A stretch of DNA of 37,088 bases from Caldilineaceae bacterium (GTDB lineage Bacteria > Chloroflexota > Anaerolineae > Caldilineales > Caldilineaceae), in NCBI GenBank assembly GCA_026989655.1, contig JALSIX010000148.1, positions 1 to 37,088 on the forward strand, in the 5' to 3' direction. Below, piece by piece: positions 8,919-37,088 of the stretch. The position numbers and the translations under genes are program-made. The notes beneath the pieces were generated by a model. The model saw only the letters and a program-made list of their open reading frames with translations. It made no database searches and was not told the DNA's origin. Position 1 is the stretch's first letter; each line of letters starts with the position of its first letter.

Positions 8919-8934
8919 GCAAAAGCCATTTTGC
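8919..8934. promoter_or_regulatory. Perfect inverted repeat between the two sufR promoters (operator candidate)
   Basis: GCAAAA-GCCA-TTTTGC: perfect 6-bp arms with a 4-bp centre, located between P1 and P2. It resembles the element at 8842-8860. Probable binding site of SufR or another dimeric repressor; this is inference from position and symmetry. Confidence 0.5.
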
Positions 8935-8953
8935 GCAATAAAAACACCCGAAA

Positions 8954-8982
8954 TTGACAAAACCCCCGCTCTCTGCTAGAAT
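8954..8982 (+). promoter_or_regulatory. Main sufR/SUF promoter P2 (near-consensus, extended -10)
   Basis: A perfect TTGACA (8954-8959), 17 bp spacer, then TAGAAT (8977-8982) with TG one base before the -10. This is the best promoter in the window. Transcription would begin near 8989 and give sufR a leader of about 90 nt. Confidence 0.75.
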
Positions 8983-9078: not shown

Positions 9079-9726
9079 ATGGCCTTGCAACAGGATCGCA
9101 GCTCGCCGGCCTGGCGCATCATCGAGTATCTCCAGCGCCACTCCTCGGCCACCATCAAAGAGCTGGAGCAGGTATTGGGCATCAGCACCACGGCCGTGCG
9201 CCAGCACCTGCAGGCCCTCCAGGCCGAGGGCTACATCGATCGGCGGGCGGTCCACTCCGGCGTGGGGCGCCCCCACTACGTGTACGTGGCCACCGAGGCA
9301 GCCCAGCGGCTCTTCGCCTGCCACTGCGACGACCTGGCCTTGACCTTGCTGGAGGAGATGTTGGCCCAGGAAGGGCCCCAGAAGGTGGCCCATCTGCTCC
9401 AGCGGGTGAGCACCCGCCTGGCCGCGCGCTATGCCAGCGAGGTCAACGCCACGGATCTGCGTCGCCGGGTGGAGCAGATGGCCCAGGCCCTGAGCGCCCA
9501 GGGGGTCCTGACCGAGGTCCGCCAGGAGCCGGGCAACACCTTTGTCCTGCGCACCTACAACTGCCCCTACTACGATCTGGCCCAGGGGCACCGGGAGATC
9601 TGCGAGATGGACCAGGCCATGATGCAGCAGGTCCTGGGCTCCGACGTGGCCCTGGAACGGTGCATGTTGGACGGGGAGGGCGGATGCACCTTCGTCATCG
9701 TGCCTGAGGAGGCGGAGGCGCCCTGA
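9079..9726 (+). CDS. sufR: SufR-type iron-sulfur-sensing transcriptional regulator
   Basis: DeoR/ArsR-like winged-helix regulator of the SUF operon. The 215-residue protein has an N-terminal winged helix (about 10-68; ATIKELEQVLGISTTAVRQH with the recognition helix near 36-48, wing SGVGRPHYVY). The C-terminal half has four cysteines, Cys162 (in YNCPYYDLA), Cys175, Cys195 and Cys203, as expected for SufR proteins that bind a [4Fe-4S] cluster and repress suf when clusters are plentiful. Unusually there is an additional CHC pair (Cys81, Cys83) just after the wing, where I would expect no cysteines. The ATG follows a run of eight G, a poor but usable ribosome site; GTG 9040 is an in-frame alternative. 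It is the first gene of the operon and lies downstream of two promoters and candidate operators, so autoregulation is likely. Confidence 0.88.
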   Translation: MALQQDRSSPAWRIIEYLQRHSSATIKELEQVLGISTTAVRQHLQALQAEGYIDRRAVHSGVGRPHYVYVATEAAQRLFACHCDDLALTLLEEMLAQEGPQKVAHLLQRVSTRLAARYASEVNATDLRRRVEQMAQALSAQGVLTEVRQEPGNTFVLRTYNCPYYDLAQGHREICEMDQAMMQQVLGSDVALERCMLDGEGGCTFVIVPEEAEAP

Positions 9727-34706: not shown

Positions 34707-35156
34707 ATGCAGATCGCTGCCAATCCCAGCCTGTGGATCCCTCTGAGCGTGGTCCTGGGGGTCCAGCTCTTCAAGTTCCTGTGGGAGTGGTTCCGGCTCC
34801 GGGACTTCGACCTGCGGGTGCTCACCCGGGCCGGCGGCATGCCCAGCAGCCACTCGGCCATGGTGACCAGCCTGGCCACCTCCATCGGCTACCGCCAGGG
34901 CACCCAGAGCGACCTCTTTGCCCTGGCCGTGGTCCTGGCCCTGATCGTCATGTACGACGCGGCCGGAGTGCGCCAGTCCGCGGGGAAACAGGCCCGGGTG
35001 CTCAACCAGATCCTCCGGGAGCTGTTCAGCGGCCAGCCTGTGAGCGAGCAGGAGCTGAAGGAACTCATCGGCCACACGCCCTTCGAGGTCTTCGTGGGCG
35101 CGCTGGTGGGGATCCTGTACAGCGCACTCTGGTTCGAGGTGCTCGGCATGGAGTAG
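34707..35156 (+). CDS. Divergent PAP2 (DUF212) membrane protein
   Basis: The 149-residue protein belongs to the divergent acid phosphatase/PAP2-related DUF212 family. It has an N-terminal TM helix (10-27), GGMPSSHSAMV (the conserved PSSHS motif), a second hydrophobic helix (FALAVVLALIVMYDAAGVR), QSAGKQARVLN, and a C-terminal GHTPFEVFVGALVGILYSALWF helix. The full phosphatase triad of PAP2 is incomplete in this family, and activity is not established. It follows xseB by 12 nt and is probably co-transcribed. Function unknown. Confidence 0.92.
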   Translation: MQIAANPSLWIPLSVVLGVQLFKFLWEWFRLRDFDLRVLTRAGGMPSSHSAMVTSLATSIGYRQGTQSDLFALAVVLALIVMYDAAGVRQSAGKQARVLNQILRELFSGQPVSEQELKELIGHTPFEVFVGALVGILYSALWFEVLGME

Positions 35157-35170
35157 GCCAGGCCGGCCCC

Positions 35171-35200
35171 GGATTTTTCTCAACACCCCCTGAAAAATCC
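35171..35200. promoter_or_regulatory. AT-rich inverted repeat abutting the -35 of the radical SAM gene
   Basis: GGATTTTTC (35171-35179) and GAAAAATCC (35192-35200) are perfect 9-bp arms 12 bp apart, ending exactly where the -35 begins. The AT-richness is striking in this genome. It is likely an operator or activator site; as a terminator for the DUF212 gene it would be poor because the stem is A/T-rich and C-rich sequence follows. Confidence 0.6.
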
Positions 35201-35229
35201 TTGCCCCCCGCAGGGAAGTGTGCTAGAAT
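35201..35229 (+). promoter_or_regulatory. Promoter of the radical SAM gene (extended -10)
   Basis: TTGCCC (35201-35206), 17 bp, TAGAAT (35224-35229) with TG before the -10, the same -10 as sufR P2. Start near 35236, about 47 nt before the ATG. Confidence 0.65.
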
Positions 35230-35282
35230 AGCTCGTCGTCCCGAGCTCCCGCCCTGTGTCGAGACACCCAGGAGAGACGTCG

Positions 35283-36623
<1,341 letters not shown>

Positions 36624-36796: not shown

Positions 36797-37088
36797 GGGC
36801 TCCTGGCCAGCCAGGCCCCCGCCGGCTTCCTGTGCCCCGAACAGATGACCGCGGATCGGCTGGCCGAGGGCCGTCGGCTCGACCCGTGGCCCGAGAGCGA
36901 GGACAGAGCCTGGCCCAGAGGCAGTGGTCCGGCTCCTCCGCCCCCCGGAGAGCACCTGGATGCTCATCGGGGCCAACCGTCCCGGACAGCTCGCGGAGGC
37001 CATGGCCGTTGGGCCACACGGACTTCGCCCCCAAGGAGCTGGAACGCATCGACACCATCCTGACACAGCCCTTCTCTCAGGAGGCGTC
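36797..37088 (+). pseudogene. Decayed C-terminus of a YghZ-like aldo/keto reductase (runs to the window edge)
   Basis: Four short segments in changing frames reassemble one recognisable AKR tail: GLLA...GFLCPEQMTADRLAEGRRLD (36797-36883), VARERGQSLAQ (36886-36918), EAVVRLLR..STWMLIGANRPGQLAEAMAV (36918-37010) and LGHTDFAPKELERIDTIL (37009-37086). The order and wording match the C-terminal third of L-glyceraldehyde-3-phosphate reductase-like AKRs (GQSxAQxAL..LL, LIGAxRxEQLxEN, FxxxELxxID). Three small deletions, of about 1, 1 and 2 bases, explain the frame changes. The catalytic N-terminal two thirds (Asp, Tyr, Lys, His) is absent upstream, where the radical SAM gene ends. So it cannot encode an active enzyme. 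Clustered sequencing error is the main alternative. Confidence 0.72.

Follow-up and report, generated by a model that had tools for sequence, protein, structure and literature searches.

An inverted repeat against the promoter of a radical-SAM gene

In a Caldilineaceae bacterium (Chloroflexota; contig JALSIX010000148.1 of assembly GCA_026989655.1), an AT-rich inverted repeat stands directly ahead of the promoter of a B12-type radical-SAM gene, P0001. Which protein might act on it, and does it tell us anything about the enzyme? The stretch analysed (37,088 nucleotides, the window) was compared with the rest of the 4.09-Mb genome and with related genomes. We think it likely that the repeat is the operator of a regulator of the SufR family encoded elsewhere in the same genome (G000:C4:1590-2243). 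The features at the locus are as follows.

34707-35156, plus strand: DUF212 (divergent PAP2) gene, the upstream neighbour (PF02681, 162.3 bits), ending 14 bases before the repeat
35171-35200, plus strand: perfect inverted repeat GGATTTTTC-N12-GAAAAATCC (left arm 35171-35179, 12-base loop, right arm 35192-35200), single copy in the window and the genome
35173-35198, plus strand: 26-bp dyad ATTTTTCTCAACACCCCCTGAAAAAT, candidate operator of the SufR-like regulator
35201-35206, plus strand: -35 box TTGCCC, beginning at the first base after the repeat, 2 bp past the dyad
35224-35229, plus strand: -10 box TAGAAT, preceded by TGTGC, 17 bp from TTGCCC
35270-35276, plus strand: probable ribosome-binding site AGGAGAG, read by eye
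35283-36623, plus strand: P0001, B12-type radical-SAM gene (446 aa, CxxxCxxC by eye), the presumed regulated gene

The perfect repeat is present as the initial annotation wrote it, and the base after 35200 opens the TTGCCC hexamer at which it was said to end exactly. A promoter scan returned the identical promoter (9/12 matches, with TG before the second hexamer), from which transcription would start at about 35236. The two arms with a loop of 8 to 16 occur once in the window and in none of 100 shuffles, and they are found at one place in the whole genome. The remark that such a repeat is unusual here applies to AT-rich ones, because AT-rich arms are rare (two with at most 4 GC of 9 bp in the window, 0.12 expected) and 9-bp inverted repeats generally are not. 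Perfect ones of any composition (loop 3-20) number 18 in the 69% GC window, a count that includes overlapping starts, against 9.0 ± 3.5 (Markov-1), i.e., about twofold.

Since the inverted repeat begins 14 bases past the DUF212 stop codon, it might serve as the terminator of that gene, or else as a leader RNA element, readings to which we give next to no credence. No T-run follows the repeat, and a terminator scan was empty there. The fold is ordinary (z -0.99, with 30/200 shuffles folding as well), and the repeat lies outside the P0001 leader because it is upstream of the promoter. An Rfam scan of the window yielded no family at the gathering threshold, cobalamin or other riboswitches included, and on that basis nothing appears to point to cobalamin or light as the signal. 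Both an intrinsic terminator and an RNA element were rejected, the combination of a GC-rich stem and a T-run being absent from the site.

P0001 matches Radical_SAM with 69.7 bits (Pfam cut-off 29.5) and, marginally, the B12-binding domain (33.6 bits; cut-off 32.1). It reached no NCBIfam cut-off and has no named equivalog, and its substrate is not named by the nearest solved structures, which are distant radical-SAM enzymes only. Its named relatives come from Caldilineaceae, Litorilinea and other Chloroflexota genomes from metagenomes. The gene had been described as monocistronic, with which the window seems compatible: no same-strand ORF of at least 90 aa starts downstream of it up to the window end at 37088, and hairpins were seen by eye just 3' of its orthologues in several relatives.

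Conservation of the dyad within the family

Orthologues of P0001 (at least 59% identity) are present in 27/61 genomes, 24 of them among the 37 genomes of the window's family (the own genome included) and three elsewhere. None of the regions upstream of the relatives' genes showed GGATTTTTC and GAAAAATCC arms in their exact form. What these regions have in common is an AT-rich block against the -35 box; the conserved part is the 26-bp dyad inside the repeat, whose centre, between 35185 and 35186, is also that of the repeat. Column counts over 67 sites gave the consensus ATTTTTATSAA-N4-TTSATAAWAAT. It is symmetric, with 8.1 of 13 pairs complementary (4.7 ± 0.2 expected) and a peak at one centre.

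A strict pattern composed of left arm, -35 and -10 had 58 matches in 28/61 genomes, compared with 7 for the reversed control pattern. Many of these matches, not all, precede P0001 orthologues, a SufR-like gene or another operon of radical-SAM genes. This operon consists of rSAM1 and rSAM2 (B12 type) and rSAM3 (SPASM), joined in several genomes by rSAM4 (B12 type); the names rSAM1-4 were coined in this analysis. These gene classes were used for a held-out test, in which a 26-bp matrix was trained on two of them and the third was scored against the 99% level of shuffles. Above this level were 24/27 P0001 loci (24/24 same-family, 0/3 other), 23/30 rSAM1 loci (22/23 same-family, 1/7 other) and 28/30 regulator loci (all save G002 and G024), related genomes not being independent of each other in such counts. 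A lack of conservation upstream of orthologues would have spoken against the initial annotation; the dyad is conserved throughout the window's family and not at the three more distant orthologues. Dyad and promoter-like sequence occur together at 23/24 same-family P0001 loci (with a spacing of 19 bp in G006), rather than 24/24, because the match in G011 has no promoter beside it; this match was omitted from later training.

The own genome carries the dyad as ATTTTTCTCAACACCCCCTGAAAAAT in the window, as TTTTTTATGAAGTCGGCTAGAATAAT at the rSAM1 operon and as ATTATTCTCAAAACTTTCATAATAAT at the regulator gene. The window dyad scored 23.5 with the held-out matrix, well above the null maximum of 12.9, and its right half is weak. 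With a dyad-only model (R1) it obtained 7.3 bits and was the sole match in the window; it was not recovered genome-wide at E<=1, R1 E-values being rough (short calibration).

Across the relatives, the dyad is found ahead of rSAM2, rSAM3 and rSAM4 as well, and in 12 window-family genomes rSAM4 has its own. The five radical-SAM genes are scattered, yet they have a common candidate operator and largely co-occur. Some dyads precede unrelated genes or lie within repeated elements. Several genomes of genus g8 (L224-L229, L197, L198) carry multi-copy dyad-like palindromes followed by a GTCCGCTTTGTCCGCTC-like sequence, which look like a repeated element, and in G003 an NDH-2-like NADH dehydrogenase gene has a strong dyad (L190:3963-3988) 36 bp ahead of it. 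In two genomes of genus g2, the main rSAM4 dyad is preceded, at a distance of ~110 bp, by an additional and weaker one, ATTTCTCTCAATTNAGTGAGAAAAAT (L194:4670, L218:1248). In G005, rSAM2 and rSAM3 are separated by two small genes (L086:12668-13464) that appear, by eye, similar to a VapBC-type antitoxin and PIN-domain toxin, as if such a pair had entered the operon.

Specificity across genomes and in a second family

A second model (R2) was built from 48 of 78 distinct promoters, all from other genomes and none from the own genome. Applied to the own 4.09-Mb genome at E<=10, it gave exactly three matches among the 150/317 first-look candidates scored: the regulator gene (1.9e-9), the window site (0.155; 14.6 bits) and the rSAM1 operon (1.72), these E-values being rough owing to the short calibration. 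Likewise, when 390,360 bases of the own genome were scanned with a matrix from which its sites had been excluded, scores >8 occurred at these three promoters only. On this comparison of sequences, it is one conserved 26-bp dyad that abuts or slightly overlaps the -35 box at the regulator gene, the rSAM1 operon and P0001.

Among the 61 genomes, R2 had matches in 50 at E<=2, so that the motif search proposed earlier, in this and related genomes, led to three own-genome promoters and to most of the relatives. The regulator (at least 51% identity) is present in 30/37 window-family genomes. In the four genomes of genus g16, the regulator, rSAM1 and P0001 have no close relatives; R2 found no match in three of these genomes and one at E 0.267 in the fourth. 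Dyads are present and the SufR-like gene was not found in G012, G023 and G030 (74-89% complete), and G076 (91% complete, 7% contaminated) has a dyad and no close SufR-like gene that we could find.

The family of G050 (20 genomes, hereafter the second family) gave R2 matches at E<=1 in 20/20 genomes, with values no higher than 2.1e-4 in 19; one G050 promoter was in the R2 training set. Among the higher-ranking matches we examined 20 stretches, with 21 dyads in total. Eight were located ahead of rSAM1, five ahead of rSAM2, three ahead of rSAM3, one ahead of rSAM4, one ahead of a P0001 orthologue (in G077), two ahead of SufR-like genes and one at a contig end; i.e., 20/21 precede rSAM1-4, the P0001 orthologue or the regulator. 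Most of the target dyads in this family are ATTTTTATGAA-N4-TTCATAAAAAT or close to it and run directly into a TTGAC-type -35 box. SufR-like genes (39-48% identity) were detected in 18/20 second-family genomes and have the dyad upstream in 17/18, the one in G075 showing none in its 204 bp upstream.

This distribution bears on another explanation. The repeat is AT-rich and abuts a -35 box, and a general promoter UP element or curved AT-rich DNA would look similar. However, only three promoters of the own genome were matched by R2 at E<=10 (150/317 candidates scored), the dyad is symmetric about one centre, the 21 second-family dyads belong to one gene set save the one at the contig end, and the promoters of canonical-type sufR genes lack it. 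A general UP element was rejected on the few genome matches, the symmetry and the absence from sufR promoters, and we regard this reading as very improbable.

The initial annotation held that P0001 seems to be specifically regulated. The regulatory look of the repeat, its position at the P0001 promoter and its conservation speak for this, but the dyad is common to the radical-SAM set and the SufR-like gene. Judged from sequence, specific regulation of P0001, common to a radical-SAM gene set, seems well supported.

A SufR-like regulator as the candidate binder

Two SufR-type proteins of the genome have to be considered.

G000:C4:1590-2243, elsewhere in the own genome: SufR-like regulator, candidate binder, with TIGR02702 as its best match, below the cut-off
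9079-9726, plus strand, in the window: canonical-type SufR paralogue heading suf genes, TIGR02702 100.5 bits, below the cut-off of 178.8

The binding regulator had been left for identification, and the SufR-like protein is now the candidate, by association. Its best NCBIfam match is the TIGR02702 SufR equivalog, with 87.8 bits, below the cut-off of 178.8. The N-terminal region is a winged helix-turn-helix (HTH_20, 34.8 bits vs 27; HTH_5, 25.9 vs 22), and among solved structures there was one weak HTH match only. A C-X12-C-X27-C motif is invariant in 14/14 aligned proteins, the window's canonical-type SufR included. In 11/13 SufR-like rows an extra cysteine, noted by eye, divides the interval from the second to the last invariant cysteine as X14/X12; the regulator does not have the four-cysteine spacing C-X12-C-X13-C-X14-C given for cyanobacterial SufR. 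Its gene is often followed by moaA, ErpA-like carrier, DUF2203, rhodanese or NifU-like genes. The dyad stands at the regulator's own gene in 28/30 loci, plus 17/18 in the second family, and an operator at this position suggests autoregulation. Points against the SufR-like protein as binder are the weak window site and the low scores outside the family (3/3 P0001 and 6/7 rSAM1 loci). To these are added the dyads of G012, G023, G030 and G076, where no close SufR-like gene was found, the regulator promoters of G002, G024 and G075, which lack a good dyad, the dyads at unrelated genes, and the occurrence of the dyad at an MntR/DtxR-like gene.

The canonical-type SufR of the window, whose gene is followed by sufC, sufB, sufD, sufS and sufU (by eye), was tried as the binder and rejected. 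In a tree of 58 proteins, the SufR-like regulators and the canonical-type SufRs, the window's included, are separated with 100/100 support, and the canonical-type sufR-suf promoters of 20 genomes have no dyad (best score 2.3). They carry TTGACAAAA instead in 16/20 genomes (by eye). One exception on suf was found in G040, of another family, where a dyad with TTGACG abuts the sufC promoter (L222:2024-2049). The same genome has a SufR-like fragment directly upstream of a B12-type radical-SAM gene (L256). Upstream of the window's sufR (8919-8959) we observed GCAAAAGCCATTTTGC (8919-8934), AATAAAAACA (8937-8946) and then TTGACA (8954-8959). Inspection by eye showed a AATAAAAACA-like block ahead of TTGACAAAA in the majority of the 20 genomes; it is a candidate operator of canonical-type SufR.

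Another protein with the dyad at its gene is an MntR/DtxR-like metal regulator that has a FeoA domain. It could itself bind the dyad and control its own gene, the SufR-like gene and the radical-SAM genes by manganese or iron. Orthologues of it with 64-76% identity occur widely among the window-family genomes, the own one too, and 21/30 loci (L277-L306; matrix >20) have the dyad upstream, mostly between the -10 box and the start. However, genus g8 has the gene without the dyad in 7/7 loci and the SufR-like gene with it, and the own-genome MntR-like promoter scores only 11.5. Moreover, the dyads are strongest in the second family, yet the best MntR-like match there has 46% identity (39-46% in 9/20 genomes, 27% in G050, and 29-33% or none in genus g47). 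We therefore consider control by the MntR/DtxR-like protein improbable; its gene may be a further target of the SufR-like regulator.

Slightly less probable still is that the dyad belongs to another regulator, e.g., a Fur-type protein. The assignment of the SufR-like protein by association only leaves room for it, and the AT-rich half-sites of the dyad resemble Fur-box hexamers. Nevertheless, in both families the dyad is found at the SufR-like gene itself. With a general iron regulator one would also expect sites at iron-uptake genes, and the own-genome R2 matches were confined to three promoters (150/317 candidates scored).

Proposed mechanism and significance

With the SufR-like protein as the preferred binder, a dimer would contact the dyad through the winged helix-turn-helix, and the three conserved cysteines would hold an Fe-S cluster. 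With its cluster in place, the regulator would mask the -35 box at the upstream edge and in this manner repress, also at its own gene, and loss of the cluster (under iron shortage, oxygen or redox stress) would free the gene set. In this way, a set of radical-SAM enzymes that depend on Fe-S clusters would be kept at a level that tracks the Fe-S supply of the cell. The regulator probably acts as a repressor whose hold is relieved under a shortage of Fe-S clusters, sign and signal being the least certain steps that we infer. Repression is favoured because the second-family promoters are near-consensus, because the dyad of the MntR-like gene lies downstream of the -10 box (if the same protein binds there) and because of the SufR precedent (PMC8593673). 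For the weaker promoters of the window's family, activation from about -50 is possible.

It had also been suggested that the repeat may hint at the substrate of the enzyme. The dyad is common to other radical-SAM genes and to the SufR-like regulator gene, and therefore it points to the Fe-S/redox state, not to a substrate. In evolutionary terms, the chances seem evenly balanced that a duplicated SufR moved from suf to a private regulon, formed by itself with moaA and Fe-S carriers, five radical-SAM enzymes of one pathway and, in many genomes, the MntR/DtxR-type regulator. If true, this would be a dedicated circuit in which the product of B12-type radical-SAM enzymes is made only as the Fe-S economy allows or demands. 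A Chloroflexota paralogue apparently having its own operator and radical-SAM regulon would mean that Fe-S-sensing control may reach whole enzyme pathways. As a tag, the dyad unites unlinked radical-SAM genes into one testable set, and it suggests which signals to apply: iron, oxygen and Fe-S stress.

Comparison with known systems

In the open-licence literature we found no paper on Caldilineaceae and radical SAM, and none on Anaerolineae with radical SAM and cobalamin-dependent. For SufR with Chloroflexi the matches listed seemed unrelated, and for SufR with radical SAM no paper on such a regulon was among the matches listed.

MntR/DtxR-type metal regulators use long AT-rich palindromic operators. 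Many window-family genomes have this dyad at a gene of the MntR/DtxR type, which is without a close homologue in the second family. IscR belongs to the Rrf2 family, with operators other than this dyad. It is an Fe-S-cluster regulator coordinating Fe-S supply with other genes (PMC8593673). Compared by description, IscR and the proposed regulator would be alike in tying Fe-S supply to other genes.

Cyanobacterial SufR is described in PMC8593673 as a repressor of sufBCDS and of sufR with the operator CAAC-N6-GTTG. It and the regulator proposed here are both winged-HTH proteins with a C-terminal cysteine motif and an operator at their own gene. In contrast to that published operator, the candidate found here is ATTTTTATSAA-N4-TTSATAAWAAT, and the putative targets are radical-SAM genes, not suf as in cyanobacterial SufR, a separate canonical-type SufR heading the suf genes. 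Rv1460, the SufR homologue of Mycobacterium tuberculosis, has the same C-X12-C-X27-C arrangement, and C203, C216 and C244 are required in it (PMC6034842). Rv1460 heads and represses the suf operon, whereas the regulator described here stands at the head of moaA and Fe-S carrier genes, with radical-SAM genes as its candidate regulon.
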